Shown here in pieces: positions 44,622 to 63,989 of a stretch of 64,000 nt of DNA. The DNA is from Bacillus sp. DTU_2020_1000418_1_SI_GHA_SEK_038 (lineage in GTDB: Bacteria; Bacillota; Bacilli; Bacillales; Cytobacillaceae). Position 1 is the first letter of the stretch; each line of letters starts with the position of its first letter. Under the pieces are notes generated by a model. That model had not been told where the DNA came from. It did not search any database and was given only the letters and a program-made list of their open reading frames with translations. The DNA lies in NCBI RefSeq assembly GCF_032341175.1, contig NZ_CP135435.1, forward strand, positions 2,108,001-2,172,000. Direction: 5' to 3'. The translations under genes were made by a program, and so were the position numbers.

Positions 44622-46034
44622 TTAGTTATTTATTCGGTTGTATGTTGGACTTTGAGCAGATTGTCCCCTTCTCTCTTTTCGCTTCTTCAGTATCTTCTTA
44701 TTGCATATGTCAACACTACGGGCATATTTCACATCCGCTGGCTTGATGTTTTCGTTCGTAAGGTAAATTCCTTTCTTTGCTAATTCAATTTTAATGTCTT
44801 CATAATTCGTACAAAAGGCTTCCATTCCTTCTTTGATTTTTAGCTTATCCATTGAAGTAAGCTCCTTTTGCCCTTCACTTATCCCGCTTACCTCAAATAA
44901 TACACTGCCGCTATCAGAAACGAACACATTGACAGCCCCGTCTTCGATTTCATACAGCTGATGGTGAATATTATCGAAATTCTTCACCATATATTCTGTT
45001 GCAAACAAGTCATATCCTAAGGCTTCCATAACATCATTGATGCTTTCAACAATATAATCGGATTTTTGTTTTTCGGCATGCAGCTTATCTAGTTGAGCGA
45101 CTTCCACTTCCAGTTGCACCTTTAATTCTGAAATTACAGCTTTATCCTCAGAGAAATAAATTGAATTTTGTTCGGCATTAAGCAGTTCACAAAGTGTTTG
45201 GTATTGGATTACAAGCTTTTCATATTCTGCATGCTCATGCCCAATTCGCTCAATTAATTGATCATATTTCTTTTTTCTAGCATAAAACGTACTCATAAGC
45301 TTTTTAATTTGGTTCCTTTTGTACCGATTATCGAACTTTTTGTGGTAGTAAACATCATGAATAGAATTATAAATATTTTGGACCTCATCTATAACTCCAT
45401 GATAAAAGTATGGAACATAAGATTCTAACTGTGCTATTGCAGCTTCCATCGTTTCTGGGAGACTATTAAGCGCGCTTCCTATTTCTTTCTCAGGTGTTTT
45501 TTGCGGAGCACTCGGAATAGAATATTTTTTTGGCTGTGCTGCAGGTATTTGACCGGCTTCTGTTAAAAAAGACTGGGCATGCTTTTGACGTTCTAGCCCC
45601 TGAATTTCAAGAGAAATTTTGTTTTCAATTATTTCAAACTGTGTATTAACCTTTGTTAGCATGTTATTTGTAAACTGCTCCATCCTTACAATACATTCAC
45701 TCAAACTTGCCATACTGTTAGAATCATATTCAACTAGAAAGTCATCCATTTGATTAAGCAAAGTATTTTTCAACTCAATTATTTCGTTCACTGTATACGA
45801 ATCGGTTAAACCATATTGATTCGCTGTGTCGCTTTGACGGTCCGCAGTCTCGTTAATTTCTTCTTTAATTCTACCAATTTCCTTATGAAGAATGGTAATC
45901 CTCATTTTTAGCTTTTGCCGTTTTATCTCTTCTTTACGTCGTCTTTCCTCTTCAAGCTCTCTTTGTCTCTGCTGCTCTAGCTGTTTTTGCCGCTCTTGTT
46001 CAATATAGAATTGACTATGCTTCGGTCCACTCAT
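44622..46034 (-). CDS. Large coiled-coil protein of the kinase cassette
   Basis: The 470-residue protein begins with a strongly charged Gln/Glu/Arg coiled coil (about residues 10-65), has further helical segments to about 350, and ends with a small globular-looking region (FEVSGISEGQKEL). I do not recognise a named domain. I chose the ATG at 46034: it overlaps the kinase stop as ATGA and has GGAGAT upstream. Translational coupling to the kinase suggests a structural or scaffold partner. Confidence 0.75.
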   Translation of the reverse strand: MSGPKHSQFYIEQERQKQLEQQRQRELEEERRRKEEIKRQKLKMRITILHKEIGRIKEEINETADRQSDTANQYGLTDSYTVNEIIELKNTLLNQMDDFLVEYDSNSMASLSECIVRMEQFTNNMLTKVNTQFEIIENKISLEIQGLERQKHAQSFLTEAGQIPAAQPKKYSIPSAPQKTPEKEIGSALNSLPETMEAAIAQLESYVPYFYHGVIDEVQNIYNSIHDVYYHKKFDNRYKRNQIKKLMSTFYARKKKYDQLIERIGHEHAEYEKLVIQYQTLCELLNAEQNSIYFSEDKAVISELKVQLEVEVAQLDKLHAEKQKSDYIVESINDVMEALGYDLFATEYMVKNFDNIHHQLYEIEDGAVNVFVSDSGSVLFEVSGISEGQKELTSMDKLKIKEGMEAFCTNYEDIKIELAKKGIYLTNENIKPADVKYARSVDICNKKILKKRKERRGQSAQSPTYNRINN

Positions 46035-47686: not shown

Positions 47687-47739
47687 TCTCCTTTATTCTT
47701 TTCCGGCTAAGATCGACTTGAACTTCCATTTCATCCCCG

Positions 47740-49071
47740 TTATTCCTTCACCGTGCTTCCATGGATCCATAGCATCTCTTGCGATTTTGGCTCTAATATA
47801 TAATACCAAGTCACACCATCCACTATTTTTACTTCGTAGTAACTAAGGATTGTATTATGTGCGACTGTTGTACGTTCAGTACTTTTCGAAATAAGCGGTT
47901 CAGTTCGAACATGAGCACCGGATTTTGCCACAACTATCACTGTACCAATTGCCTCCACCTTCTCCTCGTCTTCCGTGGACGTTTTTTCTTCTGCTACCTT
48001 CTCTTTATCTGTGCTAAGCGCCTCAATTTTCGCAGCAAGATGTTGCTCCATTTTTACTTGAATAAATGGAAAAATATTAGCATCGGCTTTAAAGGCAAAC
48101 GTCCACAATGTCCCGAAAGCAAGCAAAGCAATGGTCAAAAACCTCATTCCTCTCTCAACAAATCGAAAAAACTGATGCGGGCGATATGCCTGGGCAGGAA
48201 TATAGTTTAATTTGTCTCCTAAGATAAAACCAAGAAATCCACCAAACAAACTGCTTAGCAGAAGTAAATTCACTTCACGTAGTTGTGTAAAATTAAAGCC
48301 TGTCGGCAAATGAAAAAAATCCTGTACCAAGGCTAAAATAATAAATCCGCTTGAATATGTGAGGAGCAGGAAAATTGAGAATAAGCGCATACTTTGGCGA
48401 ATATTTGCTACCCCAAGTAAAAATAGAAGAGCACCGGTTCCAATTATCCCCCATTCTACTTGTATGCCTACCGGTTTTAAATAAAGCATGAGAGCAAAAA
48501 ATACTAAGGCTCCCATAACTGTTCCGAATCTCCGCATAAATATAGCCCGCATATCATCCCGGAGCGCCATATCCCTTGTTCGCAAATTTACATATTCATC
48601 AATAATCCCTTTATGATTATTCTTTTTCAGAAAATTTCTAAAAGCATCTACAGGTAATAAGCCTGTCTTATTCTTTAAAATACGAATCTTATAGTATAAG
48701 TCTTGATTTATTTGTTTTAGTGCCTCCAAATCATTCTTCGAAATAAGATGAATATCGTATTTATTATTGTTCATCCTTTGGCGGGAGGTATTTTTGAGCT
48801 CGTGAAAGCTGCTGTATAAATTACATAGTGTCGCGAATTCCGTTTGCATTTCTGGTAATGTCTTCTTTTTCCATTGAATTTTCATTAGTTTATCATGAAG
48901 TTCCTTGCTAATTGATGAAATAAAGATATAGTCATGGAGACTCTCCAGCAGCCTGTATTCTGCTGTTTCCTGTATCCGCTTATAATAAATATCCATAAGC
49001 TCAGATTGATCCTTATTTGCTACTCCTGACAGAAGCAAGAGGAATTCTGTTGTCTTTTTTGGAACGCCCAT
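47740..49071 (-). CDS. Membrane protein with C-terminal SH3-like domain
   Basis: The 443-residue protein has a soluble helical N-terminus (about 1-180), five or six membrane segments (about 185-330), an acidic linker (EEKTSTEDEEK) and a C-terminal SH3b-like domain (about 370-443, GAHVRTEPLISKS…WYYILE). The SH3 domain may face the cell wall. I place the start at the second ATG, 6 bases after GGAGG. It probably anchors the kinase cassette in the membrane; that is inference from context. Confidence 0.78.
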   Translation of the reverse strand: MGVPKKTTEFLLLLSGVANKDQSELMDIYYKRIQETAEYRLLESLHDYIFISSISKELHDKLMKIQWKKKTLPEMQTEFATLCNLYSSFHELKNTSRQRMNNNKYDIHLISKNDLEALKQINQDLYYKIRILKNKTGLLPVDAFRNFLKKNNHKGIIDEYVNLRTRDMALRDDMRAIFMRRFGTVMGALVFFALMLYLKPVGIQVEWGIIGTGALLFLLGVANIRQSMRLFSIFLLLTYSSGFIILALVQDFFHLPTGFNFTQLREVNLLLLSSLFGGFLGFILGDKLNYIPAQAYRPHQFFRFVERGMRFLTIALLAFGTLWTFAFKADANIFPFIQVKMEQHLAAKIEALSTDKEKVAEEKTSTEDEEKVEAIGTVIVVAKSGAHVRTEPLISKSTERTTVAHNTILSYYEVKIVDGVTWYYILEPKSQEMLWIHGSTVKE

Positions 49072-49134
49072 CACCATCCTCCATTTCTTTCGGTATTTTT
49101 ACTCAATAATTTGTAATTGTAAGATTACAGGAAA

Positions 49135-51048
49135 CTACAATCCTACTTTTTCACGGAAATGCTCACACTCTAACTTAGTGATTTGTTCATCTTGTACAAT
49201 TTGCCGTACATGCAGCTGGCAAGGGCCCTTAATTTCGTAATCATATAAATATCTTGATAACGGGTTGATAAAAATAGACTCAACAATATTCCCAATCCCA
49301 CGGCCGCCATTTTCTAAGTTTGCAACGGCTTTTTCCCTTATGTATTCCCTTGCTTCGTCATTAATGGAAAGAATAATTTCTTTTTGCTCTTTTAACGCTG
49401 CCACAATTTTTCGCAGCTGGTGATCAAGTATCAATTGGGCCACATCTTCACGGATATAATCAAACACGATAATGTTGTCGCCAATTCTATTAAGAATTTC
49501 TGGGCGACCAAGCTCAAGCTTGAAGTAATTATTAATTTCGTTTAATATTTTTTCCTTCAATTCTGGGTATTCCATTTGAGGTGTGACATTCGGAATTCGC
49601 TCGCCCATTGCATCCTTCTTATAGATTCCGAGATTGCTTGTGAAAATGATTAAAGTCTCAGAGAAATAGACCGTTTCTCCCTGACCATCCGTCATCCTTC
49701 CGTCCTCCAATATTTGCAGGAACTTATCCAAAATAGAAGGATGCGCCTTTTCAATTTCATCGAAAAGTAAAACAGAGAACGGGTTTTCTTTCACTGCATT
49801 TGTTAATTGACCGCCGGCTTCATAGCCAACATAACCAGGAGGGGCGCCTAGCAGTTTTTGATCGGCATGGCTTTGCTGATATTCACTCATATCAAAGCGG
49901 TGACAGCTTGACTCATCACCAAAAATGAGTTCCGCTATTGTTTTTGCCAGTTCCGTTTTTCCTGTTCCAGTTGGCCCGGCAAAAAACAATATTCCTTTAG
50001 GTTTGCTTGAATGAGATGAATGCTGCAAGCCAGAAAAACCGCCAACTGCACGTTTTAAAATATCCAATGTTTGAATAACCGCCGGCTTTTGCCCCTTCAC
50101 CCTTTCTTCAATTTTGCTGTGGGCATCCTTTAACTTCTCAATACCCACTTCTTCCCACAGATTTTCCTTTATCCCATGCTTAAACAAGCGGATCGCTTCG
50201 GCAACTTTGCGAATATAGATCTCCTCTTGGCGACAGAGATTTCTAAGTCCGATTAATTCAATATTCGTAAACCCTTCCGTTAAGTCAATAAATTGCTGCT
50301 TTAGATTTTCCTGTTCTTCGGCGGGTACCTCCTTTGATCCAATGAAGCCATCGAACTCATTATCAATGAAGCTTGCCCGTATCTTTCGATTAGGCTTTGG
50401 AATATGCAATGTTTTCACATATGGATTATCCAGATACATCCATGCGGGAATATCATTCGCTTTATTACAAACGAGAAACAACAGATTATTTACTAGTTTG
50501 TTAGTCGCTTCAACACGATGGCGGTTCAGTTTTTGAGTAGTTAAAAATAAACGTGAGTACAGGGTATTCTCTTCCTCACTTAAATTTTGCGGCGATATAA
50601 TATATCTTGATGACAAATTCAAAATGACTGCCAACGGTTTTGTTGAAGTCTCCATTGCCGTACTAATCATTTCGGTTGCTTTCGATACGGTAGCCTTCAG
50701 CGACATTCTTACATGATTCCGTTCTTCACTGGGGTCGGCAGTTGAACCACTCTCTACTCTGCCTTTCGCCAGCGATTCAAACTGCCTTATGTGGTCCGAA
50801 CTGTAAGGATTGTAAAAACCATCAATATGATTATAAAAAATAATGGTTTCAAACCCTTGATTGACTAAATATTGGTATAAATAATAGTCAAGTGCACTAA
50901 TATTCCACTGTCTTTTCCCATCAACATTGTGTGAGTAAGCATGTAAATCAAAGATATTCCCTTCTACGATAAAGGTTGATTTAATTGATTTAAAGCGATC
51001 TAATTCAAGCTCCCAGCTGCTGGGCTGTAAAAATGGATCCGAAGTCAT
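49135..51048 (-). CDS. ClpA/ClpB D2-type AAA+ ATPase with unusual N-terminus
   Basis: The 637-residue protein has an N-terminal half (about 1-300) that is not a Clp N-domain or D1 ATPase and begins with a possible alpha/beta fold. It then has one complete ClpA/B D2-type module: Walker A GPTGTGKTE (near residue 358), GAPPGYVGYEAGGQL pore loop, Walker B LLFDEIEKAHP and sensor TSNLG, with the D2-small C-terminal domain. It has no M-domain or ClpP loop that I can see. As first gene of the cassette it is likely a remodelling motor. An AAGGGG site precedes the ATG. Confidence 0.88.
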   Translation of the reverse strand: MTSDPFLQPSSWELELDRFKSIKSTFIVEGNIFDLHAYSHNVDGKRQWNISALDYYLYQYLVNQGFETIIFYNHIDGFYNPYSSDHIRQFESLAKGRVESGSTADPSEERNHVRMSLKATVSKATEMISTAMETSTKPLAVILNLSSRYIISPQNLSEEENTLYSRLFLTTQKLNRHRVEATNKLVNNLLFLVCNKANDIPAWMYLDNPYVKTLHIPKPNRKIRASFIDNEFDGFIGSKEVPAEEQENLKQQFIDLTEGFTNIELIGLRNLCRQEEIYIRKVAEAIRLFKHGIKENLWEEVGIEKLKDAHSKIEERVKGQKPAVIQTLDILKRAVGGFSGLQHSSHSSKPKGILFFAGPTGTGKTELAKTIAELIFGDESSCHRFDMSEYQQSHADQKLLGAPPGYVGYEAGGQLTNAVKENPFSVLLFDEIEKAHPSILDKFLQILEDGRMTDGQGETVYFSETLIIFTSNLGIYKKDAMGERIPNVTPQMEYPELKEKILNEINNYFKLELGRPEILNRIGDNIIVFDYIREDVAQLILDHQLRKIVAALKEQKEIILSINDEAREYIREKAVANLENGGRGIGNIVESIFINPLSRYLYDYEIKGPCQLHVRQIVQDEQITKLECEHFREKVGL

Positions 51049-51917: not shown

Positions 51918-51945
51918 CATAGGCTTTACTTAGGATTACGTCATT

Positions 51946-52212
51946 GTTTGTAATCCCCCGAATGGCGGGGAGTACTTTGCAACGAGTATGACGGAAACGA
52001 TCTAGACGCCCATTGCATTGAGCCGTTTCAATCCCCTTATGACGGGGAGTACGATGCAACAGTCGCCTGTTGAAGTCGGTACAGCGTACGCTGTGGCTGC
52101 GTTTCAATCCCCTCATAACGGGGAGTACGTTGCAACGCAATCCTTCTGAAAAGAAAAACGAACTATTATGGATTGAGTTTCAATCCCCTCATGACGGGGA
52201 GTACGATGCAAC
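51946..52212 (-). CRISPR. Short CRISPR array: four 36-bp repeats, three spacers
   Basis: Repeats are at 52177-52212, 52101-52136 and 52025-52060, plus a degenerate terminal copy at about 51946-51983. Spacers are 40, 40 and about 41 bases. On the minus strand each repeat ends ATTGAAAC, the 8-base crRNA tag typical of Cas6-processed type I/III arrays, so transcription runs leftward. The degenerate repeat at the far left agrees with a leader on the right. Repeat positions 18 and 30 vary between copies. Confidence 0.96.
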
Positions 52213-52490
52213 GCTGCCTTTTTTAAACCTTGTGGTTTCAAGGCTGAGGATGCGCAAATCGCGAACCTCTATAAAAAGAGAATAAACAAAGAAATTTTTT
52301 TACTTATTTTCTGCTTCTATTGTACCAAATCCCTTGATAAATGGGAAGTCCTTTCATTTTGCGAATCGAAACGGTACAATGCGGATATGACAGGTCCTTG
52401 GACCTTTCGTGCAAAATACGATTAGAAAATCATTATCCCAAAATCTCATGTTAAAGTGAATTTTTGCCTAAAGAACTAAAAATGATGAAC
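52213..52490 (-). promoter_or_regulatory. CRISPR leader region
   Basis: The AT-rich, gene-free stretch lies between the last (newest) repeat and the cmr operon and contains no convincing ORF. Position, AT content and array polarity identify it as the leader with the array promoter. Confidence 0.65.
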
Positions 52491-52528: not shown

Positions 52529-53692
52529 TTATAATTGCAAAAGCTTTTTCACTTCTTGCACCTTGTTGTATTGTTTTTTCTGTTGTTTTTTTATCTTCCA
52601 TTGCCCATTTGTTTCCCAATAAGCTTTAAGAGCAGAAGCAGCTGCAGCATTTTTCTGACTTAATACTTCTTCAAACAAAGCATTCTTGCTTTTATCTTGG
52701 TCGGCTTGCGAAGATGATAAGGATTGAATTTCATAGAGCAATCGTTCTTCTTTTGTCATCTTTTCTAAGCGGGCGGCAATTGCTTCTTGCTCACGGGCTT
52801 CTCCCTCTATTTCCATCTTTCTTAGCCGCTCTTTCCGTTGTTTTTCAATTCTTTCTTCCTGCCCAGCTATCACAATTTCAAATTCATCCTTCGTTACATC
52901 CGTAACTTCCGAAAAAAGGCCATACCCTAAAGCTGATTTGGAACCGATTCCTAATTCTTTGAATGCTCGACACGTCCAACTGGCAGCCGCTTGAATTAAA
53001 TCATCACTCGAAATCGCTGTTTTAATTCCCTTTGGCACAGTTAAGAATATATTAGCCTCTTTTACATTCACAGTCCAAAACGGGACGGGATTTGGTTTTT
53101 GACTATCCGTTGCCGTATTTCCCCCGCTATAATATTCTTTAAAATGCACTGTTAATATATCCGCTTCAATTTGTAACTGCTCATGCAAGTAAATATCATA
53201 AAACTGGACCGCACCACGATTTTCCTGCGAGCCAAAAACAGCTTTTCCCCACTCATTGTCCGCCAACTTGGATTCGTCCCCCTCACAATAGGCATGAATA
53301 AACCAATGGCGAACAAGGCCCTTCACACTCGAAGCGGGGATATAAGGAAACCCATAGACCGGGTGCAAAGTAAGGGATGTCTCCTTTACATGTCCTGCCC
53401 CCATCCCAGGAATAATCCGCGATAAAGCAGTTGCCCTTAATTGCCGAATATGAAAGGATGCATTCATTTCGGCAATTGCCCGTTGCCTGCCTTTTTCGAC
53501 CGTTTTTCCGAGCTTGCTTAACTCCGGCAGTATTCGTGGAGCGGGTTTCTTTTTATCAGGTGAATATTCAATTTTCCCGTTTTTCACTTCTTGAATCATT
53601 TGATTATAATGAAGGTGATACCATAAGTGGGCAATTTTCCCCCTATCAGCAGGTTTAAATGCTTCCTCCGTATCTTTCGGATGAAAATGCAT
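52529..53692 (-). CDS. cmr6: Type III-B RAMP protein Cmr6 with charged C-terminal tail
   Basis: The 387-residue Cmr6 carries the RAMP signatures IPGMGAGHVKETSLTLHPVYG and PYIPASSVKGLVRHW (near residues 95-135) and the GSKSALGYGLF glycine-rich loop near 255. Cmr6 caps the Cmr backbone near the 3' end of the crRNA. The C-terminal 110 residues are a Lys/Glu-rich coiled coil beyond the usual RAMP core. I use the ATG at 53692, 6-8 bases after GGAGGGGAG. It is the last gene of the operon. Confidence 0.93.
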   Translation of the reverse strand: MHFHPKDTEEAFKPADRGKIAHLWYHLHYNQMIQEVKNGKIEYSPDKKKPAPRILPELSKLGKTVEKGRQRAIAEMNASFHIRQLRATALSRIIPGMGAGHVKETSLTLHPVYGFPYIPASSVKGLVRHWFIHAYCEGDESKLADNEWGKAVFGSQENRGAVQFYDIYLHEQLQIEADILTVHFKEYYSGGNTATDSQKPNPVPFWTVNVKEANIFLTVPKGIKTAISSDDLIQAAASWTCRAFKELGIGSKSALGYGLFSEVTDVTKDEFEIVIAGQEERIEKQRKERLRKMEIEGEAREQEAIAARLEKMTKEERLLYEIQSLSSSQADQDKSKNALFEEVLSQKNAAAASALKAYWETNGQWKIKKQQKKQYNKVQEVKKLLQL

Positions 53693-53706
53693 CACACTCC
53701 CCTCCT

Positions 53707-54093
53707 TTACTCATTGATCATGCCGTCAGCAAACTTGCGCATCCAGTTTAATAGCGCAATGGTTTCCATTGTCAGCATCCTGTATTCGGAACTCTTTAGG
53801 CTTACAACCACTTCAACGAGTTCCTTTGATTCATCTATAAAGTATTCTCCATGCGTTTCCTTTAACCATCTATGTATTTGCTGATAAATGGCCAGATATT
53901 CTTTCTTTTTCTGGAAACAGAACGCCAATGTTTGTCCTAAGCCGTTAACCTGAATAAGGGATGGGATTTTCTTCACGTATGAACGATATTTCTTATTATT
54001 GTGGTTCCCGCTTTCAACAATCCTTTTTACTTCTCCAAATGCATACGCCGCCCGGCCATTTTCGATACCAGTGCGAGTTCTTACCTTGCTCAT
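53707..54093 (-). CDS. cmr5: Type III-B small subunit Cmr5
   Basis: The 128-residue all-helical protein has the Cmr5 pattern (RTRTGIENGRAAYAF at the N-terminus, GLGQTLAFCFQK, LLNWMRKFADGM at the C-terminus). Cmr5 forms the minor filament of the effector complex alongside Cmr4. The ATG follows GGAGGAGG. It sits in the expected place between cmr4 and cmr6. Confidence 0.93.
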   Translation of the reverse strand: MSKVRTRTGIENGRAAYAFGEVKRIVESGNHNNKKYRSYVKKIPSLIQVNGLGQTLAFCFQKKKEYLAIYQQIHRWLKETHGEYFIDESKELVEVVVSLKSSEYRMLTMETIALLNWMRKFADGMINE

Positions 54094-54109
54094 ACACACA
54101 CCTCCTCCT

Positions 54110-54994
54110 TTACAGCCAAATTTTTCTTAACATTCCATGCCCAAGTGTACTGTTGCCTCCTAATTGAAAAACAGCCGGAAACCGCATTTCATCTACTAAG
54201 AATGCTTCCACATCAGCAGCTGTCTTCATATCGTCAGTACCTGCTCCGCGAACATTCCCTGTGTAAAGAATGCTATAAAAAATCGTTTCCGGGGGAACAT
54301 TTTCCTCGTACCAAAGTGCTCCCTTATCAACAATGCCTGTTTCTGAATTAATTTTTATCCGTGCATTTACTTCAGTTGATAAGCGCACAAAATCATTGAA
54401 ATCATCATCTCCTAAGATAACGATTCGATCCCGAACATCCGCAGAAAAGTCCTGTTGAATATAATTCGCTAATTCGTCGGCGATTTGTTTCGTTACACTG
54501 TTCTCTTCCACAGAGAATGCATATTCTTCCAAAACAATTTTACCCTCTGAAACGATAAGTTTATTGGAGGATACCGAATTCGGCTGTATTTCCGAAAATA
54601 CTCTTTTCTTTGTACCGTTAATTGCCATCTCATTGTAAAATCTATTTAAAACATATGGGCATGTGATCCATGCAAAGATCCCGCGCATTGATTTCACTGG
54701 AAAAAGCAATACCCGTGCATCACTGAAAGCAATCGCGCTCGACTGGGATTCATTATCAGCTTTCATATTTGGACTAGAACCAAACACTAACTCGAATTTC
54801 TCCGCATCCTCTGACTGTAATCGCTGCTCAACCGTATAGCGAATAGCTCCCTTCAACGATGAGCTTTCAATTTTCGGGAAACCTGTATGCTGCTCACGTT
54901 GGATAGGCAAATCTACTAAGCCGATTTCGCTCCCGCTCCCGGCATGAACAGAAGTAATGGCATGCAATAAAAATGGTTTTGCTTTTGTATACAT
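54110..54994 (-). CDS. cmr4: Type III-B backbone nuclease Cmr4
   Basis: The 294-residue RAMP shows VHAGSGSEIGLVDLPIQRE (with the aspartate used for target RNA cleavage at about D28), then TGFPKIESSSLKGAIR and a C-terminal LGHGMLRKIW. Several copies line the crRNA and cut target RNA at 6-base intervals. All recognisable active-site features are kept. It starts at an ATG with a GGAGGCG site. Confidence 0.94.
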   Translation of the reverse strand: MYTKAKPFLLHAITSVHAGSGSEIGLVDLPIQREQHTGFPKIESSSLKGAIRYTVEQRLQSEDAEKFELVFGSSPNMKADNESQSSAIAFSDARVLLFPVKSMRGIFAWITCPYVLNRFYNEMAINGTKKRVFSEIQPNSVSSNKLIVSEGKIVLEEYAFSVEENSVTKQIADELANYIQQDFSADVRDRIVILGDDDFNDFVRLSTEVNARIKINSETGIVDKGALWYEENVPPETIFYSILYTGNVRGAGTDDMKTAADVEAFLVDEMRFPAVFQLGGNSTLGHGMLRKIWL

Positions 54995-55012: not shown

Positions 55013-56152
55013 TTAATCCATATTTGCGGCTGCAATGACTGCAAAGCCAAATCCTTCTTGCGCTCCTTGATCCGTCAATGAAAAACCATTGACTAATTGA
55101 AGCAATGAATCTACTTGCTCAGCTATTGTCATAGCTTGGTTTTCTTGCAGACTTATATAAATAATCGAACCTTCCGGCACCATGAAACAGCGTTTTTTCG
55201 GACGGTGCTTCACGATATCCCAACCGCCATACAAACTTGGTCTGCCGATTGCAGCTGTTAGCCAGTTGACATGAATTCCATTAGGTAAGGTTAACTTTGT
55301 TCCATCAAACGTCAGCGGTCGTGACCCTTGCTCCCAAATAGCGGGAGAAAGAAGGACTAATTTTGCTAGTTTTGTTTCCAATATTTGTTGCCTTATTTTT
55401 TCGAGTTCAGTGCTATCCCATAATGAAAAGTCACCCTGCTCTTGTTTTATCGACCAAGGACGGTTTTCTCCGCCAATTCTTGCAAATGGTATTTTTGTAA
55501 AATCTGGACTGTTAGGTGTATAGACGATTAAGCCGCCATCATCCTTGAAGCGTAGTTTTGTCATATTATATAAATAATTCTCTTTTGTTCGCCGCTCATT
55601 ATAATCAAGGGCAATTCCTATTTTTTGTTCTTTTTCCAACAATTCATTGACTGAAATGACATCTTTAAACGGTTGTACGCCCAATAAGGCTGTCTTCCAT
55701 TGTTCAATTTTCACATATTGATTTGCAGAGCCTTTCGTTTTTTCCTTGCGGTTTGACATCAGCCTCCATCCAGATCCTTGTGACGATGGGTTTTCATCCA
55801 TTTGCAAACTGAGTGGATATGCGATATTGCCATCATTCTCTGTCGCCATGACTTGATGATCGAGCGGGAGCGGAAGCAATAATTCCTGCTTGTAATACAG
55901 CCCACAGTAATCAAGGCGGAAATCGCCCAGCTTATCTGGTGTCCCCATCCATTTTTTCACTTCCGCATGTGTACCTTCCCGAAATTCTTCAAATGATATA
56001 TGGTGATGAATGAAGGCAGAGCGGAGTGCGCCGTATATTGTATTAGGACGCGGTGGGAAAATCCCTGTCATGGTACTATCTGATCCGGCTTCTGTCATCT
56101 GCTGCCCTTTGAAGAAAAAGGTATCAACCGGCGCTAACCTTAATTTTGTCAA
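55013..56152 (-). CDS. cmr3: Type III-B crRNA-tag-binding subunit Cmr3
   Basis: The 379-residue protein has the Cmr3 N-terminus (LAPVDTFFFKGQQMTEAG), PPRPNTIYGALRSAF, and a C-terminal GFGFAV glycine-rich loop. Cmr3 binds the 5' tag of the crRNA and contacts Cmr2. It starts at TTG, 7 bases after AAGGAGGA, and follows the cmr2 stop directly. Confidence 0.93.
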   Translation of the reverse strand: MTKLRLAPVDTFFFKGQQMTEAGSDSTMTGIFPPRPNTIYGALRSAFIHHHISFEEFREGTHAEVKKWMGTPDKLGDFRLDYCGLYYKQELLLPLPLDHQVMATENDGNIAYPLSLQMDENPSSQGSGWRLMSNRKEKTKGSANQYVKIEQWKTALLGVQPFKDVISVNELLEKEQKIGIALDYNERRTKENYLYNMTKLRFKDDGGLIVYTPNSPDFTKIPFARIGGENRPWSIKQEQGDFSLWDSTELEKIRQQILETKLAKLVLLSPAIWEQGSRPLTFDGTKLTLPNGIHVNWLTAAIGRPSLYGGWDIVKHRPKKRCFMVPEGSIIYISLQENQAMTIAEQVDSLLQLVNGFSLTDQGAQEGFGFAVIAAANMD

Positions 56153-56154
56153 AA

Positions 56155-57771
56155 CTATTCCTCCTTTCTTTCAAAAAAGGTTAGAATCTTTAATAAATGC
56201 AAGAAATCCATTGTGGTAGGGGAGCAGTCATGTAAAGTGACTAAGTATTGAACAGCTTCCTCTACTGTTTCGTTGTTCAATCGACCTTTAACTGATCTCT
56301 TAAGCAATCTGCGCAATTCTACCTCAACCATCTCGCGAGAGGCTATTTTTTCGTAATCCTTCACCGTTGGATGAAGAAGAGGTGCAAATGCCTCCATAAA
56401 GGTATAAACAAATGTGGATGAAAGCTCTTCTTTTAAAAGCGAAATTATTCTTTCCAATTGCTCTATCGTTCGCGTATCCCCAATTGTCCAAGGAAGAACT
56501 GTTTCGGAAATCTCGCCTGCTCTCGTATGTACGCCTATTGCTAATGCATTTTTCACCGTCTGTCCCTTGCGATAGCTTTTCGCTTTCTTTTCAAGATTTC
56601 GTACTTCATTTAAAAGCCCTTGTAATGGGGCTTTCTCGTGGCCAATAACTAAACCAGCGGATGCTGTTGCCCCTTTTCCAAGCCCCTCCTCCTCACTACT
56701 GAAAGCAAAGCGCAAATCATTGGCAATCTTTAATGCATCCTGAACAGGCATAAAAGCCAATACATCGTCACCGCCGGCATAAACAAGCTGTGCTCGAACC
56801 TCTTTTTCGACAATCTTAGGAACAGCATCCATCGCGAATGTGGCCAGTTTTTTACTAACTTCGCTGTAGCTTTCCATACGCTCCCCCGAAAACAAGGAAC
56901 CCATATTATCTCCGTCCATCATTAATATCGCATAATAGCTCTGATTCGCACTTGTCAATTCCGTCACAGAATTAAAGCCGCGAAACCCCTTTGAAAAATT
57001 ATAGAAAAACTTAAAATAGTCGCGGGCCAAACGTTTGCCGGTGCATATGCCACATAAAAACTCGTTGTCTCTGATTCTTTGCACCTTTTCTCCCTTAAAT
57101 CTCCGATCGCGCTTATCCCATGTCCGCGCTAATTTTCGCTTCATATCGCCATAGCGATCTTTCTCGCTAATATGTTTCGCACATAAGGCATCTCGTTCAT
57201 GGCAAACACTGCATGTAAGGCCAAGCTGTTCAACTTGGGGATATTGTTTATCGTTTTTTAATGCGCCTAAACGGCTTTCAAGCTTTTCTCTTACTAATTT
57301 AAAGTTATCTTCATCCGCAAATGGCTCTATTACCCAATACATTTCAAGCAAGGCATCAATTTGCTCCTCAGTGGCTTTTAGTAGATAAGAACGTTTTTCA
57401 TCTGGTAAACTAGCAAATAATGTTTTAATCGCAAAGCCGCAAACATCAAGAAATGCTTCTTTTATTTCCTTTTCGGTTTCTTGTAAATGTTCAATAACTT
57501 TGTTCATGTCTCCTTCGATTATCGCTGTAAAACGATTAGGCAATGAAGCGATGTGAAGGGTATCATGATTAGGATTATCAATTTCCTCACGGGACAATAC
57601 GGGAAAAACGAGTTGAAATGTTGGAGCATTTTTATATAAATTTCTAAGTGCTTCACGAATTAAGTGGGAAAGTAAATAGCTTCCACTCCAAAAATCTTCA
57701 ATTTTCCGAGCGGAAGAGATAAAGGACTGTACAGGTCCGACTGTAAACAATACAAGATATCGCTTCGTCAT
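56155..57771 (-). CDS. cmr2: Cas10/Cmr2 with GGDD cyclase motif and no HD nuclease domain
   Basis: The 538-residue Cas10 begins almost at once with the Cmr2 motif (LVLFTVGPVQSFISSARK). It has a zinc-binding pair (C187xxC190 and C240xxC243), a palm domain (MMDGDNMG near 285-290) and the GGDD cyclase motif at 333-336, followed by the C-terminal helical domain. The HD nuclease domain that precedes this region in many Cmr2 proteins is missing, hence the short length. It should make cyclic oligoadenylate on target binding but not cut DNA. It overlaps cmr1 by 4 bases (ATGA). Confidence 0.95.
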   Translation of the reverse strand: MTKRYLVLFTVGPVQSFISSARKIEDFWSGSYLLSHLIREALRNLYKNAPTFQLVFPVLSREEIDNPNHDTLHIASLPNRFTAIIEGDMNKVIEHLQETEKEIKEAFLDVCGFAIKTLFASLPDEKRSYLLKATEEQIDALLEMYWVIEPFADEDNFKLVREKLESRLGALKNDKQYPQVEQLGLTCSVCHERDALCAKHISEKDRYGDMKRKLARTWDKRDRRFKGEKVQRIRDNEFLCGICTGKRLARDYFKFFYNFSKGFRGFNSVTELTSANQSYYAILMMDGDNMGSLFSGERMESYSEVSKKLATFAMDAVPKIVEKEVRAQLVYAGGDDVLAFMPVQDALKIANDLRFAFSSEEEGLGKGATASAGLVIGHEKAPLQGLLNEVRNLEKKAKSYRKGQTVKNALAIGVHTRAGEISETVLPWTIGDTRTIEQLERIISLLKEELSSTFVYTFMEAFAPLLHPTVKDYEKIASREMVEVELRRLLKRSVKGRLNNETVEEAVQYLVTLHDCSPTTMDFLHLLKILTFFERKEE

Positions 57772-58700
57772 AACTTCACCCCAAGTCTACGTAAAAATTG
57801 ATCCCTTTCCCGTGCATAGACGGCTTTGTCGCGAATATTACTTCCATTCGTGTGCAGCTCCGTAATAATAGGATAATAGAGGGATCCTATTTGTCGAATT
57901 GTGCACCATAACGGTGAAGCCCAGCGTGGTTTTGCTGATCCTAATGTTCCTGGCGGGTTCACCTCGTGGGATGCAACTCCAAAATTAGTTAGGATTTTTC
58001 TAATGGAGCTATCACCTGACCCGATATAAACAGCCCCTAATACTGGATGAGCTACTCGAACTGAGGATTTTCTTTTTACTAAACATGGCCCGGCTTCGTT
58101 CCAACTAAATTCATTCTCAAAACCTAGTCCTGTCAGGGATTTCTTTAATGATTCTGCAAAATCCGACACTGTGCCCCATTGATGATTCTCCCATTGACAC
58201 GCTCCATACCCCCGGCGGGACCTTTGCCCCATTCCGGTAAGGTGAAGTATATAATTCATGTATTTTTCATATAGTTCGAGCTTTCTCTCATTGACCTTCA
58301 TTACGTGCATATGGATGTCAATTCTCTCATTTTCCGGAATGACCGATGATTTAACGTGCGTTTGCTTCGGATCATTTCTATCTCCGGTTCGGTGCGGCAA
58401 TAAATTCTCTTGTTTCTCCCCTTTTACTTGTTGAATTAACGAAAAAGACACTGGTGATTTTCTCATATTATCTGTTTCCGTCCCGCCAAAGAGCAGGACC
58501 TCTTCGGATAAAAGATTTTTATTATTTGGTTCGAGCTGCAAAGAACGCCACCAATACCTGAGAATTCCTTTCATTGAGGCAGTCCGAAATTCAGCTGCTC
58601 CCCGTGGATATGCCCCATGCATTGCCATTGGAGAAACAATCGTCAATGAATAGTTTCTTTTTGCAATGGCGGTTTTCCCTTCCAACATATTTTCCTGCAT
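57768..58700 (-). CDS. cmr1: Type III-B RAMP protein Cmr1
   Basis: The 310-residue RAMP has the Cmr1 signatures SLTIVSPMAMHGAYPRGAAEFRTASMKGILRYWWRSL (split across residues 17-52), LFGGTE and a GMGQRSRRGYGA glycine-rich loop. Cmr1 binds the 3' end of crRNA/target duplexes. It starts at an ATG with GGGGAGGAAG upstream and is the first core cmr gene, 15 bases after the Csx1-type gene. Confidence 0.94.
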   Translation of the reverse strand: MQENMLEGKTAIAKRNYSLTIVSPMAMHGAYPRGAAEFRTASMKGILRYWWRSLQLEPNNKNLLSEEVLLFGGTETDNMRKSPVSFSLIQQVKGEKQENLLPHRTGDRNDPKQTHVKSSVIPENERIDIHMHVMKVNERKLELYEKYMNYILHLTGMGQRSRRGYGACQWENHQWGTVSDFAESLKKSLTGLGFENEFSWNEAGPCLVKRKSSVRVAHPVLGAVYIGSGDSSIRKILTNFGVASHEVNPPGTLGSAKPRWASPLWCTIRQIGSLYYPIITELHTNGSNIRDKAVYARERDQFLRRLGVKL

Positions 58701-58715: not shown

Positions 58716-60014
58716 CTATACTTGCTGTCTAGTCAGTTCTAGCATTTTCTCAAAGAACGGTCTTAGCTCTTTGACACCTTTTTTTAAACTAGGCAGAAAT
58801 ATTTCCGCCTTTCGAGCATCAGAATTTGTACCTGCATGATTAATATCATTTCGGTAGTCTGACAGACTATCGAAAGGCTTCAGCTGCTCACGGTAAGGCT
58901 TGAGAAAGGCTAATATTTCTCTAACAAGCGGTTTCTCCTTTTCCTTCACCGTCCATCTTTTCTCAGGAAGGTTCCGCATTAAAATTTTGATTGCCGGATT
59001 AATGCATTTTCTTTTCTCTCGTTCTGTCGGGTCAATTTGGAGGGCATAGCAAATAGCTGTTACACAACTTTCTTGCAATAGCGTAATGCCCGGCTGAATT
59101 AGGCGATGCTCTACACACCATTCAGCCGCAAGCAGCCCATTCATTATTTTATCGTCGCCGAAATTTTCATATTTTGATTCTATTTCCGTTAATAGTGGTA
59201 CAAGCGGCTTAATTTTATTAGATTTGGCACCTCTTACCGTCTCAATCTGCTGCTTTAATTTATTAATTTCATCCGTAAGCACGAGGCTTCGACATGTCTG
59301 GAATGACTGCCCAACGATATCTAACTGTTTTGTCAATCCATTAAGCGCTGCTGTAGTTACCTTCTCTTCTTTCGATATGGATTGATCACGGAATACATTT
59401 CCCGTCTCATCATTTGTAAATTGTTTTATCAAGGAGGCATCACCGGTTCTAATAAATTGATCGACTCCGTTTGTCCAGTCAAGCAGCGTAAGCATGCTGG
59501 TTACATCTATAATAGGTGCCAGTTTTTCCGGTTGATTCCGATCAAAAAGTCCATACATGAGTTTATTAATCTTGGCCTTTTTTACTAAGCGGGCATAATT
59601 TAATACTATGAGTGACACAAGTGGGATGGAACGGAAGCTATGTGTCATATCAAAGTAAATTTCGTCCCCCTCCTTAATTTGCGAGAGGATAATATCAAAC
59701 AAATTCCAGTTGGCTTCTTCATCCTGGGAGCTGCTAATATCAACGAGTTTGACTTTTGCCCCGGGAGTAATTCTTGCAAAAGCTTTTTCTAGTCCTTCTA
59801 GCCACTCTCCCTTTTTATTTAGATGTTCCGCCCAGTTTTGCGCTTTTGCTTCCTTTGTAGCAAAAACAATAATTTCCAAAGGTCCTTCTGTTAACGTATG
59901 TTCATAAATAGCAGTCTGGATAAATCGGGTAAACGTTGATTTTTTTCCTTCATATGTGTAATAGCAAGACTCATAGTCTCCCATTCCAAGAAAGGAGAAC
60001 AATACTTTCCTCAT
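58716..60014 (-). CDS. CARF-HEPN ribonuclease, Csx1/TM1812 family
   Basis: The roughly 432-residue protein has a TM1812-type N-terminus (RKVLFSFLGMGDYESCYY), the conserved YFDMTHSFRSIPL motif of the CARF domain near residues 120-132, and a C-terminal HEPN domain with RxxxxH (YRNDINHAG near residues 387-395). Family members are non-specific RNases switched on by cyclic oligoadenylate from Cas10. The ATG at 60014 is preferred over an upstream TTG that lies too close to the only G-rich site. It overlaps the preceding gene's end only slightly. Confidence 0.9.
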   Translation of the reverse strand: MRKVLFSFLGMGDYESCYYTYEGKKSTFTRFIQTAIYEHTLTEGPLEIIVFATKEAKAQNWAEHLNKKGEWLEGLEKAFARITPGAKVKLVDISSSQDEEANWNLFDIILSQIKEGDEIYFDMTHSFRSIPLVSLIVLNYARLVKKAKINKLMYGLFDRNQPEKLAPIIDVTSMLTLLDWTNGVDQFIRTGDASLIKQFTNDETGNVFRDQSISKEEKVTTAALNGLTKQLDIVGQSFQTCRSLVLTDEINKLKQQIETVRGAKSNKIKPLVPLLTEIESKYENFGDDKIMNGLLAAEWCVEHRLIQPGITLLQESCVTAICYALQIDPTEREKRKCINPAIKILMRNLPEKRWTVKEKEKPLVREILAFLKPYREQLKPFDSLSDYRNDINHAGTNSDARKAEIFLPSLKKGVKELRPFFEKMLELTRQQV

Positions 60015-60022
60015 CCCATTAT

Positions 60023-60952
60023 TCAACCCCTAATCAAAATTTTTTCCGTTTCGTCTACGAACTTTCTTCCTACTTTATATATTCCGATTCCTATAGCCGC
60101 TTCACGCATATATTTATCATGGTCAAGCCAAAGATGATTGGCAGTTAATACATCTGTTGCCTGATCGTATTGATAAGCTAATCGAAAGGCAGTTTGTCCG
60201 TTGCTTGCTCCTTTATACAAATGATACAAAACCTTTTTAGGGTCTATTTTTTCAAATTCCTTTTCATGCATTAGGTCATTATTTAAACTATTTTCATATT
60301 TAAGCTTTTTAATTAGTTCCCGCAGCTGCTGTGCGATAAAAATAGACTGATGTTTATTTTCGATGGCAAAACGTTGGACTTGTTCAGAAAGGATATATTT
60401 AGTCCCAAATAAATGGTCATACTTTGAACGTTCAAACAAAAACTCCCCGAACGGGCTTAACGCAACAAAGTGTTCTTCCAACGAAAAGAGTGCTGTATGT
60501 TTTTGGATCAACTGTTGTTCCTCATACGTTAATGAGCCCAATTCCATTAAGTCAAGCTGACATTTTCGCAGTAATTGACTATTTTCACCCACAAAGTCTT
60601 CATCGATATCTAATGGCATTGGCGGTAATTCAATAAGAATTTGATGATCTTCATGTAAATAAGCCGTCGGATAATGCAAAAATGACCCGATCAAATATCC
60701 GAGCGATGTTATAACTTTGTATCCGCCAATTGGGGCGAAGCAGGTTGTGGCCGGTTCACCTTCGGTTAACGCATCAGCTAGTACACGCAAAACACCGGCA
60801 GCTTGATGTTTCAGATCCTTAGAATTTGAAACAGACATTTCGATATAAAGCACTTTGACATTTGCTCTTATCTTCTCTTCAAAAATATACCGCAGCATGC
60901 GTTCGCAAATGATACCCCCGAAGGTTTTTGTTACAATTAGTACAATCGTCAT
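60023..60952 (-). CDS. CARF-type protein, main (C-terminal) reading frame
   Basis: The 309-residue frame holds most of an APE2256-type CARF protein: VLIVTKTFGG in the place of the usual SDT-x-EG loop, PIGGYKVITSLGYLIG in the place of the NATGGYKA loop, and LPPMPLDIDED. The remaining half is helical with LSPFGEFLFERS and AFRLAYQYD segments and no identified nuclease motif. It lacks the first CARF strand, which is encoded in the previous frame upstream. It may be translated from its own ATG, but without that strand it would not fold as a complete CARF domain. Confidence 0.65.
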   Translation of the reverse strand: MTIVLIVTKTFGGIICERMLRYIFEEKIRANVKVLYIEMSVSNSKDLKHQAAGVLRVLADALTEGEPATTCFAPIGGYKVITSLGYLIGSFLHYPTAYLHEDHQILIELPPMPLDIDEDFVGENSQLLRKCQLDLMELGSLTYEEQQLIQKHTALFSLEEHFVALSPFGEFLFERSKYDHLFGTKYILSEQVQRFAIENKHQSIFIAQQLRELIKKLKYENSLNNDLMHEKEFEKIDPKKVLYHLYKGASNGQTAFRLAYQYDQATDVLTANHLWLDHDKYMREAAIGIGIYKVGRKFVDETEKILIRG

Positions 60953-61220
60953 GTTCTCTGCACATTTTTTTATTCTTTATTAAGGTATGAATCATCGAAT
61001 ACTCGGCACTAACTGCATGAGGATTTTTTTCAATCTCATACATATATGTTTTAGCCTGCTCGAAATACTGCTCCATTTCCTTCGTCATTTCTTCCGTTAT
61101 CCTTGTCGTCTGAAGCGATGTTGTTAATATACCAGCTGTCCTATTCCCGGTTTTATTTGAAAATAAATTATTACCGGTAAATAAAGAGATCCCACATGTC
61201 ATAACAACCGTATGATACAT
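60879..61220 (-). pseudogene. N-terminal part of the same CARF protein, out of frame
   Basis: The 113-codon ORF supplies the missing first CARF strand and loop (HTVVMTCGISLFTGNN) and EYSMIHTLIKNKK, then loses sense at an A7 run (60965-60971, minus strand). Removing one A joins it to the next frame and gives one protein of about 398 residues. The tail after the A7 run (CREHDDCTNCN…) overlaps the coding region of the second frame. Either an indel, a sequencing error or regulated slippage explains it. Confidence 0.7.
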
Positions 61221-61234
61221 AGCTCCACTCCCAA

Positions 61235-62938
61235 TTAAATTGATAATTTATCTAAATGATGAGCATTATTGACACAACGAATAATTATTTGGTTATTCTT
61301 CATAATAAAATGATGAATGGACGTATCTTCTGAATCTACACGGAAATCATGACTTAACGGCAAATTCATTACTTCTTTTAAAATAACGTTAATTGCACGT
61401 CCATGCGTAACTAAACAAACTGTTTTACATTGATGCCGATGAACAAGCTCATAAAATAATTCAACGACGCGCCGATTAAATTCGATGTTAGACTCGCCAT
61501 CAAATGTCCTATCAAAAATTACTTGTTTCGAAGGCAGTGGATATAAAATTTCAGCTTCGCTTTTTGTTAAACCACCAGGTTTACCATAATTCATCGCTCG
61601 TAAATCATCTAATATTATCGGCTGCAAGCCCAATTCCCTACTTATATGTTCTGCTGTTTGTTTAGCCCTGCTTAATGAACTGGCATATAATATATCGATT
61701 TCAGGATGTTCATTTTTTAGATGTTCAGCTACTAATTCAGATTGCTTATGACCCATTTCGGTCAATTCAAAGTCTGCCCATCCTTCAATCCTTTGTTCTT
61801 CTTCCCCAACATGCTGCCCATGTCGAACTAGGATAAATTCTACGCTTCCCTCATCCTGATTCGACATAAACGGCTGATAGCGCTGGTATAATTCCACCAT
61901 TACCGCGTTTAGCTCTAGCTCATTTTTGGCAGTTGTATGGATGGAAAATTTCCATGTCTTTTGATCTTGTCCATACGTACCTTCAATTGCACTGTTATGT
62001 ATATTCAGTATTTGAAAGACTAGCGGTCCTGTTATATCATCTTTCATTCCTGTTATTTCAACTTTTTTCACATAACTCAAAGATTGAATGCTTTCTAGAA
62101 TTGTTTGTAAGCTTAATGGTATATGGTCTAAATATTCAATCAATTCAACTGACACATTCCCCTTATTTTCCGTAGGGAGATAGAGTTTTCCTTCGTCCTT
62201 AAACCGATCCCAAAGCACCTCATGTAAAAGCAGACCAACTGAGGATAAACGAAGCTGTCCTCCTGAACGTTCAATTAACCCTTTTAAAGGCTCGAGATCA
62301 ACGTTATCCGGCAATAATTTTGATGATAGAATCCCTAAATTATGTAACTCCTGAAACAAGCTAAAGTTTTTCAACCAAAGCTTATAATCCAAAGAAACCG
62401 GCAGTACAGGGAGTTGCACAACTGAAGAGAAACCTTCAAATTGATAGTAGACAGGAATTTTCAATACTTGTCCAATTAATCCCGCAAACGAAATTTGCGC
62501 TTTATAGCCGCCTGTAGCATTGATGATGCATGCAGATTCGCGTTCCGGAACACTCTTAATAATTTGCACAATTACTTTTACGAGATTCCTTAACCCCTCT
62601 TCTTTAAAAAACTCTGGTTTCTCACCGTTTAAGTGTTCAATTGTAATTGTATGAACGCGATGAAAAAGAGAAATAAAATACGCTTTTAAAATTTCATTTA
62701 TCTTTTTCCCCTCTTTAGTGTCTGAACATAGTAAATATAGATTTTGTTGTTCATTTAATAGTTGTTCATCTATTATAGATAGAATAGAGGATATCTCCGC
62801 ACTAATTTTCCCAGGGTCCTCTAGCTTGTCTAATTTACTAGCTATCTCTTGAGCGGGCAATTCCCAATCTATTTGACTTCTTTTAAGGCTGCCTATAAGT
62901 GACGTTCCTACTGTGGCAATCACAGTGTTTTTAATCAT
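61235..62938 (-). CDS. CARF domain fused to histidine phosphatase domain
   Basis: The 567-residue protein starts as an APE2256-type CARF domain: ATVGTSL at residues 8-14, SDTKEG at 72-77 and NATGGYKA at 140-147. A helical/winged-helix-like middle part follows (about 190-355), then a histidine phosphatase domain: RHG at 372-374 with the nucleophile H373, YASSLSRAKQTAE near 418-430 and LVTHG with H512. The expected proton-donor glutamate of LRE is alanine at 448. It lies inside the type III-B operon between cas6 and other CARF genes, so it is probably a cyclic-oligoadenylate-regulated phosphohydrolase or a ring nuclease; I know of no characterised example. Confidence 0.85.
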   Translation of the reverse strand: MIKNTVIATVGTSLIGSLKRSQIDWELPAQEIASKLDKLEDPGKISAEISSILSIIDEQLLNEQQNLYLLCSDTKEGKKINEILKAYFISLFHRVHTITIEHLNGEKPEFFKEEGLRNLVKVIVQIIKSVPERESACIINATGGYKAQISFAGLIGQVLKIPVYYQFEGFSSVVQLPVLPVSLDYKLWLKNFSLFQELHNLGILSSKLLPDNVDLEPLKGLIERSGGQLRLSSVGLLLHEVLWDRFKDEGKLYLPTENKGNVSVELIEYLDHIPLSLQTILESIQSLSYVKKVEITGMKDDITGPLVFQILNIHNSAIEGTYGQDQKTWKFSIHTTAKNELELNAVMVELYQRYQPFMSNQDEGSVEFILVRHGQHVGEEEQRIEGWADFELTEMGHKQSELVAEHLKNEHPEIDILYASSLSRAKQTAEHISRELGLQPIILDDLRAMNYGKPGGLTKSEAEILYPLPSKQVIFDRTFDGESNIEFNRRVVELFYELVHRHQCKTVCLVTHGRAINVILKEVMNLPLSHDFRVDSEDTSIHHFIMKNNQIIIRCVNNAHHLDKLSI

Positions 62939-63080: not shown

Positions 63081-63989
63081 TTACTTCCAAATTTTTATTT
63101 TTCCAAATCCCATTGATGTACTCTTCCCAATATGGATGAGTTCAGCAAATTTTAAGAGGTGATAGGTTTCACGAGTACCCTCGTATTTTTGTAATCCGAT
63201 CAATCCATCTAACCGCATTTTTTGACTTTTCCTATTTGAATAACGTTCAATGCTAGCCGCTTGCAAAAAATCATATACTTTATTTGCAACCACATCTTGT
63301 TCCGCTCTAATATTCACGTAAAGTTCTGGATAATAATGGCTTGCAATTTGATTGACTCTGCTCGTTATACTTTTCATAATAATCGAATATGTAAGTGTTT
63401 TTTGAAGCCTACCTTGATGAGTAATTCGTGCTGGCGTTATAAATTCAATAATAACCTCATTACGTTCCTCTAATTCAAGTTGTTTTGCGGGTATTTTTTT
63501 GCACTCTATATTTCCATCAATATATATAGATGATGTTATTTGTTCATCATTATAGGCTTCAACTTTCTTCAATTTCGCCGCAAGCCTAGACGCTCCCAAT
63601 CCAATTTGCCCCATTTTCTCAAAGCATTGACACAATTCCGGGGTCATATCGTTTAGAAAGCTAATGGTTATGAGTTCAAAAGAGATGCGGTCCCCTGCTT
63701 TCCATTCCGTTCGGTAATCATTGCATCGCATTACAAACGGGTGCGGCGCAAATCCACCTTGAAGATTTGGCGATTCAAAAATCTGTTTATACATGCAGCC
63801 CTTCCCATATAAACACTCCGAATTTCCGCCCTCCGCACAAGAAGGGCAGGCTGTCTCCCGTAACGCATGCCCCATTAATCCCCTAAAGGTAGACCCTTTA
63901 AAAGATGGCAGAACCCCATCTTCTAATAATTCGTAAGTCACAATAATATGTCCGATTGACATTCTCTGGATTAAATCATATATTTCCAT
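63081..63989 (-). CDS. cas6: pre-crRNA endoribonuclease Cas6
   Basis: The 302-residue RAMP protein has a Cys-rich N-terminal insertion (CPSCAEGG…CLYGKGC near residues 48-66) and a C-terminal glycine-rich loop (GKSTSMGFGKIKIW at the very end), typical of Cas6 in type III loci. It cuts repeats to leave an 8-base 5' tag, matching the ATTGAAAC end of the array repeats. The start lies 11 bases from the window edge; an ATG at 63962 is an alternative and upstream extension cannot be excluded. Confidence 0.88.
   Translation of the reverse strand: MEIYDLIQRMSIGHIIVTYELLEDGVLPSFKGSTFRGLMGHALRETACPSCAEGGNSECLYGKGCMYKQIFESPNLQGGFAPHPFVMRCNDYRTEWKAGDRISFELITISFLNDMTPELCQCFEKMGQIGLGASRLAAKLKKVEAYNDEQITSSIYIDGNIECKKIPAKQLELEERNEVIIEFITPARITHQGRLQKTLTYSIIMKSITSRVNQIASHYYPELYVNIRAEQDVVANKVYDFLQAASIERYSNRKSQKMRLDGLIGLQKYEGTRETYHLLKFAELIHIGKSTSMGFGKIKIWK

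Follow-up and report, generated by a model that had tools for sequence, protein, structure and literature searches.

The window analysed here is a 64,000-nucleotide stretch of the genome of Bacillus sp. DTU_2020_1000418_1_SI_GHA_SEK_038 (contig NZ_CP135435.1, positions 2,108,001 to 2,172,000), and towards its end, within a type III-B CRISPR operon, lies a gene in which an N-terminal CARF domain is fused, through a middle domain, to a C-terminal histidine phosphatase domain (HP). The encoded protein, here called CARF-HP, represents a genuine, rare and conserved CARF effector architecture with an unusual active site, and probably belongs to a kind of CRISPR effector about which little is known, the function of which may be that of a phosphohydrolase gated by cyclic oligoadenylate (cOA). 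The gene and its parts are as follows.

61235..62938, minus strand: CARF-histidine phosphatase gene, 567 residues (frame, Pfam, PADLOC)
62396..62938, minus strand: CARF domain, residues about 1-181 (Pfam Cas_APE2256 at 44-179)
62168..62395, minus strand: segment after the CARF domain, residues about 182-257 (alignable with 8phb to about residue 245)
61853..62167, minus strand: middle domain, residues about 258-362 (PADLOC profile CARF_DUF2103)
61238..61852, minus strand: HP domain, residues about 363-567 (Pfam, alignment, HP model)

The frame starts with an ATG at 62938, shortly downstream of a GGAGG at 62950-62946, and runs without internal stop to a stop codon ending at 61235; the plus strand of the same interval contains 54 stops. 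A first-pass annotation of this DNA had reported an unbroken 567-residue frame joining CARF and HP at these coordinates, which is borne out by the frame itself and by Pfam, with the strand now corrected to minus and with the addition of the middle domain, which was absent from that description. The motifs that it listed (GTS, SDT-x-EG, NATGGYKA, RHG and LVTHG) are present in the translation, as ATVGTS (from residue 8), SDTKEG and NATGGYK (from 140) in the CARF part and as RHGQH (from 372), SSLSRA (from 420) and THGRAI (from 511) in HP. Pfam Cas_APE2256 matches residues 44-179 (E 9.9e-35, 119.8 bits, cut-off 24.8), His_Phos_1 matches residues 369-558 (E 1.7e-41, 142.5 bits, cut-off 21.7), and TIGR02619 scores 63.7 bits, above its cut-off of 37.45. 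The best PADLOC profile, CARF7--CARF_DUF2103 (PDLC01930), covers residues 3-355 (E 1e-97), making the CARF and middle domain a known arrangement to which HP is an addition, and the middle domain is indeed common to CARF7 proteins without HP. As no Pfam family matched residues 181-365 at E <= 10, identification of the middle domain with Pfam DUF2103 was rejected, this name deriving from PADLOC only; its identification as a decayed RelE domain was also rejected, hhalign against the neighbouring RelE region having given one aligned column.

Relatives were sought with the whole protein in 61 genomes and with the CARF plus middle domain in sets drawn from the order (397 genomes), the class (398), the phylum (398), two families (200 and 41) and another order (250). 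These sets overlap, one of the searches used a full-length profile, and two additional searches gave no extra genome. Genes around the relatives were named by their resemblance to window genes, except for those searched with profiles. CARF-HP or its remnants were found in the type III loci of five genomes from five families (the window genome, G070, G040, G048 and G501). In G070, which belongs to a different family, the frame is intact, has the same domain order and is 45% identical to that of the window over its whole length; in G040 the order is the same and the frame broken; G048 retains a 136-residue C-terminal piece, 75-77% identical, located before a Csx1-like gene; and the G501 counterpart is a protein of 263 residues (L088:9603-10394, minus strand) which has kept the CARF domain and lost the middle domain and nearly all of HP, its last residues resembling the HP end. 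The assembly of the window genome as a single 4.47 Mb contig, the intact G070 frame and the same order in the G040 pieces make a joining of two genes by assembly error unlikely, and this possibility, raised in the first-pass annotation together with that of a fusion confined to this genome, is contradicted, as is the latter, by the intact and broken relatives in type III loci of other families. The domain pair, which the annotation had proposed looking for elsewhere, thus occurs intact in one further type III locus (G070) and frame-broken in another (G040).

Any APE2256-type match was found in 12 of the 397 genomes of the order, and a frame that is intact, long enough for both domains and matched through the middle domain only in the window genome and G070. 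CARF and middle domain without HP occur in G875, G837, G876 and a Nostoc plasmid, in proteins of 373-406 residues, and the CARF model aligned over about 85-105 residues with nine frames of 1173-1252 residues (E 5.5e-5 or weaker). No relative was found on viral contigs, and no CARF-HP on genome contigs (nothing in one search, and in another one locus with an HP match only), plasmids (93 records, none covering 80% of the query) or phages (17 records, again none covering 80%). The gene order Cas6, slot, CARF-RelE, Csx1 is common to the window, G501 and G1188, with the Cmr block placed after it in the window and G1188 and before it in G501. This slot is occupied by CARF-HP in the window, by the CARF with HP deleted in G501, and in G1188 by a lone APE2256-type CARF of 234 residues with GTS and GGYK (L097:1846-2550), which on its motifs is a candidate ring nuclease.

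HP is the best conserved part of the protein, the identity between the window and G070 being 54% in HP, 43% in CARF, 41% in residues about 182-262 and 31% in residues 263-362. It is under strong purifying selection, with a non-synonymous divergence of 0.155 for the G048 piece (0.261 for the G501 CARF), both against saturated synonymous divergence. In a tree of 12 rows, which did not include the partial G048 and G040 pieces, the complete HP domains of the window and G070 CARF-HP proteins form one clade (99/99). The residues that define the active site were placed by alignment:

61817..61825, minus strand: RHG, with the nucleophile His373
61667..61669, minus strand: Arg424, phosphate pocket
61595..61597, minus strand: Ala448 at the general-acid (Glu) position
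61397..61405, minus strand: H512-G513-R514

The His_Phos_1 match and the RHG/Arg/His core, kept in every CARF-HP copy covering these residues, place HP in branch 1 of the histidine phosphatase superfamily, whose members use metal-independent phosphohistidine chemistry. The predicted structure agrees with a branch 1 fold: an HP-only model (predicted local distance difference test, pLDDT, 68.5; predicted template modelling score, pTM, 0.72) matched 307 PDB chains in Foldseek at E <= 0.001, with 4ij6 as the best match (E 3.1e-12) and PspA, PhoE, PGAM5 and CobC among the 50 of these matches listed. This model was used for the fold alone, and no active-site geometry was taken from it. The general-acid position was fixed by aligning HP with PspA, PhoE and phosphoglycerate mutase. 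These three have Glu there, as do 10 of 10 solo HPs, which were taken from the loci that matched best in the whole-protein search; all four CARF-HP copies covering the position (window, G070, G040 and G048) have Ala, within LRA. Arg514, directly after HG, is likewise present in four of four CARF-HP copies and in none of the ten solo HPs. The earlier reading of this domain as a histidine phosphatase is upheld, with the qualification that its active site departs from the standard. E385 was considered as a relocated general acid and rejected, since five of the ten solo HPs carry Glu there in addition to the usual one. The SixA model TIGR00249 scores 34.7 bits against a cut-off of 74.5, and no NCBIfam histidine phosphatase equivalog listed reaches its cut-off for CARF-HP; SixA may itself lack the general acid.

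Proton donors are reported to differ between histidine phosphatase families (PMC12051542), so Ala448 does not exclude membership of the superfamily; nor need it mean a dead enzyme, since MINPP, described as promiscuous, has Ala at the proton-donor position and the E991A variant of ScVip1 showed raised activity (PMC11836120). With the general acid replaced by Ala448 and Arg514 added, the substrates would be expected to be multiply phosphorylated or to have a good leaving group.

The features of the CARF domain that bear on sensing and on cleavage of the activator are two:

62900..62908, minus strand: motif I GTS, residues 11-13 (sequence; meaning from PMC10018336)
62501..62521, minus strand: NATGGYK, residues 140-146 (K146 opposite the Lys of 7pq2, Sis0811, in the alignment)

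The CARF domain and the segment that follows it align with Sis0811 (7pq2), Sso1393 (3qyf) and the APE2256-family chain 8phb, which we take to be Cami1. Because these are cA4-related CARF7 proteins of solved structure, cOA binding is favoured on sequence grounds, and the CARF pocket of CARF-HP is predicted to bind cyclic oligoadenylate. In Sso2081, Ser11 of GTS is reported to matter for cleavage, while the conserved Lys106 matters in Sis0455 and less in Sso2081 (PMC10018336). K146 would be the motif-II Lys of the Sso2081/Sis0455 type; the Lys of Sis0811 in 7pq2 is Gly in the sister entry 7pqa. GTS and Lys are both present in the window, G501 and G1188; G070 has GNS and has lost the Lys (GGDL), as has G040 (GGDN; motif I lies outside the piece read), and the loci of these two genomes each encode a second APE2256 protein with GGYK. 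This pattern suggests that the window version may limit itself and that the G070/G040 version may be a sensor only. The NCBI ring-nuclease equivalog NF040951 scores 41.5 bits on CARF-HP, against a cut-off of 600.

The other operon genes, named from Pfam, NCBIfam and PADLOC profiles, are given below in operon order, CARF-HP being located between the first two; all genes are on the minus strand.

63081..63989, minus strand: Cas6 (PADLOC Cas6 E 5.5e-63; NCBIfam below its cut-off)
60023..61220, minus strand: CARF-RelE (CARF7--CARF_RelE), Cami1-like, frame-broken as 61220-60879 and 60952-60023 (frames, PADLOC)
58716..60026, minus strand: Csx1-type CARF-HEPN with the motif RNDINH (RxxxxH) (NCBIfam, PADLOC)
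57768..58700, minus strand: Cmr1 (NCBIfam, PADLOC)
56155..57771, minus strand: Cas10/Cmr2, GGDD at residue 333, no HD in residues 1-60 (Pfam, NCBIfam, PADLOC)
55013..56152, minus strand: Cmr3 (Pfam, NCBIfam)
54110..54994, minus strand: Cmr4 (NCBIfam)
53707..54099, minus strand: Cmr5 (Pfam)
52529..53695, minus strand: Cmr6 (NCBIfam)
51943..52213, no strand assigned: CRISPR array, 4 repeats with 76-77-base spacing

Cmr1-6 together with Cas10 identify the operon as type III-B, as had been annotated. In all five loci compared (window, G501, G1188, G040 and G048), Cas10 carries GGDD and lacks HD near the start, and a system with such a Cas10 would be expected to rely on effectors gated by cOA. Csx1 occurs alone in 284 loci of a published survey and together with Cami1 in 54 (PMC11229360). 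The CARF-RelE gene has unbroken counterparts of 392 residues (L088:8387-9565) and 383 residues (L097:2554-3705). A CRISPR repeat with leader-like flank is found on both outer sides of the III-B island, at window 52172-52400 and at L034:2217-2430, about 217 bases beyond the window end, so that the island is bracketed by direct repeats. In the region adjoining this island (window 44622-51048), inspection by eye showed one frame that resembles a protein kinase (46031-47686) and another that resembles a Clp/AAA ATPase (49135-51048).

In the two loci where the CARF-HP relative lacks the Lys, it is directly followed by a RelA/SpoT-like gene:

L031:7418-8533, minus strand: RelA/SpoT-like gene of G070
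L032:16772-17872: RelA/SpoT-like gene of G040

These match RelA_SpoT at E 4.6e-24 (G070) and E 2.2e-20 (G040) and are 50% identical. RelA/SpoT genes of this type were found at E <= 1e-30 in 4 of 249 genomes of the order (G070, G040, G234 and G204) and not in the window genome; inspection by eye of the 4-kb loci around the G234 and G204 genes (L100 and L101) found no CARF or HP. The pairing of CARF-HP with RelA/SpoT, seen in two of two cases, is no more than suggestive. The G070 type III locus also contains a 923-residue frame (L031:4474-7245, minus strand) with three domains, namely reverse transcriptase, TOTE-type archaeo-eukaryotic primase and Mu Gam-like TOTE, which adjoins a gene that is Cas1-like by resemblance only.

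Among known systems, Chp (CARF-HAD) is likewise a type III protein that combines a CARF with a phosphatase, and since its publication in December 2025 a phosphatase CARF effector can no longer be regarded as unprecedented (PMC12715507). Chp is reported as a cA4-binding protein that removes phosphate from ATP, dATP and IMP; Ala substitutions in its HAD motifs lowered in vitro activity and did not abolish toxicity (PMC12715507), which serves as a warning for any phosphatase-effector claim, CARF-HP included. CARF-HP differs from Chp in its N-terminal CARF, middle domain and histidine phosphatase, in its occurrence in III-B and another type III locus, and in a phosphatase fold and chemistry that are unrelated; no HAD domain was found in it, Pfam giving only His_Phos_1 and Cas_APE2256. 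It is an analogue, not a homologue, of Chp. The CARF7 CARF_DUF2103 proteins share its CARF and middle domain but end after the latter, without HP. Cami1 shares the CARF7 CARF and next segment, and a CARF-RelE is the next gene in the window operon, whereas CARF-HP itself has no RelE domain, the PADLOC CARF_RelE models reaching residue 291 at most (the best, CARF7--CARF_RelE, covers 4-257). Crn1 proteins (Sso2081, Sso1393 and Sis0811) resemble the window copy in their APE2256-type CARF with GTS and conserved Lys; CARF-HP, unlike these, is not stand-alone, falls below the NCBI ring-nuclease cut-off and has two relatives without the Lys. Fold, RHG, Arg and His are shared with the branch 1 phosphatases PspA, PhoE, CobC and SixA, from which the Ala at the general-acid position, the Arg after HG and the CARF fusion distinguish it.

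In the literature searched, outside which the 2020 CARF classification falls, so that an earlier listing is possible, no paper was found on the pairing of CARF with histidine phosphatase or with DUF2103, nor was any characterised CARF-HP member, in keeping with the earlier annotation; the main texts of PMC11229360, PMC12669027, PMC9704534 and PMC12409355 do not use the word "phosphatase". Known CARF effectors are mostly nucleases, with a few acting on membranes or nucleotides (Cad1, Cat1 and Chp; PMC12715507).

With somewhat better than even confidence, we interpret CARF-HP as a cOA-gated phosphohydrolase that serves type III CRISPR signalling as an ancillary effector. Cas10, once activated by target RNA, would produce cyclic oligoadenylate, probably cA4, whose binding by a CARF dimer would switch on the C-terminal HP; this would form a phospho-His373 intermediate and take phosphate off a cellular phosphocompound, slowing both cell and phage. 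Nucleoside di- and triphosphates would be the first substrates to consider and phosphohistidine proteins the second, rather than plain phosphomonoesters, and the window CARF may also slowly cut its own activator. The signal-gated phosphohydrolase proposed at first pass is thus partly supported, while the sequence does not settle its alternatives of depleting a metabolite and resetting signalling.

Several observations weigh against this interpretation. The CARF evidently has a use without HP, as G501 retains the CARF with hardly any of HP and in G1188 a CARF alone fills the corresponding slot; of the five CARF-HP copies, three are truncated or have a broken frame; HP lacks the general acid, and a replacement residue was looked for and not found, so that its activity may be weak or nil; confidence in the HP model is low (pLDDT < 50) just after Ala448, at model residues 90-103; the full-length model (pLDDT 46.6, pTM 0.37) was discarded, which leaves allosteric coupling without structural support; and the RelA/SpoT link is left unexplained.

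An off-switch is an unlikely alternative, in which the CARF would be a ring nuclease and HP would trim the phosphate ends of the linear products, or act on another nucleotide, thereby ending the signal. It accounts for the GTS and the ring-nuclease-linked Lys of the window CARF (PMC10018336), for the stand-alone G1188 CARF with the same motifs in the same slot and for the retention of the CARF only in G501; no dedicated ring nuclease was noticed among the listed window operon genes (Pfam, NCBIfam, PADLOC), and A2>P products are reported to be still capable of activating the effector TaqCad1 (PMC12669630). Yet G070 and G040, having lost the Lys, keep the most similar HP and each have a second APE2256 protein with GGYK, the ring-nuclease equivalog score is far below its cut-off, and a trimming enzyme needs no fusion behind a middle domain. 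The consistent replacement of the general-acid Glu by Ala, when solo HPs and PspA, PhoE and phosphoglycerate mutase retain it, might instead point to a pseudo-phosphatase that, without turnover, recognises a ligand or partner carrying phosphate and so serves as a second sensor or as a scaffold. We consider this improbable, given that all other core residues are kept in what is the most conserved part of the protein, that enzymes with Ala at the proton-donor position can be active (PMC11836120) and that the donor varies between families (PMC12051542).

A third alternative, that the fusion is accidental or of a housekeeping kind, plays no part in CRISPR immunity and is now in decay, would agree with the broken or truncated state of three of five copies and with the rarity of the intact form (two frames, in the window and G070, in 397 genomes of the order). 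It is disfavoured and very improbable in our view, the copies being located in type III loci of different families, with their HP domains in one clade under strong purifying selection, whereas decay is general among effector genes of such cassettes, the neighbouring window CARF-RelE being itself broken.

Within the interpretation of CARF-HP as a gated phosphohydrolase, a more specific and distinctly speculative version, to which we attach little probability, is that an HP lacking its general acid strips the supply of nucleoside triphosphates (NTPs), acting on nucleotides or on the phosphohistidine of an NTP-making enzyme, compare SixA on nucleoside diphosphate kinase, and that one sub-branch couples it with a RelA/SpoT-type gene, both enzymes acting on the same purine nucleotide pool; CARF-HP would then be the first type III CRISPR effector to fight phage by means of such an HP. 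The reported action of SixA on phospho-Ndk indicates that a histidine phosphatase can throttle NTP supply (PMC12934123).

If CARF-HP is indeed such an effector, the histidine phosphatases would be a further enzyme superfamily gated by the CRISPR alarm, and the conserved Glu-to-Ala change leads to a clear prediction on the class of substrate. The natural series found in a single slot, comprising a lone CARF, a CARF with HP deleted and CARF-HP with or without the ring-nuclease Lys, would provide a ready set for the study of how sensor, off-switch and effector are combined.
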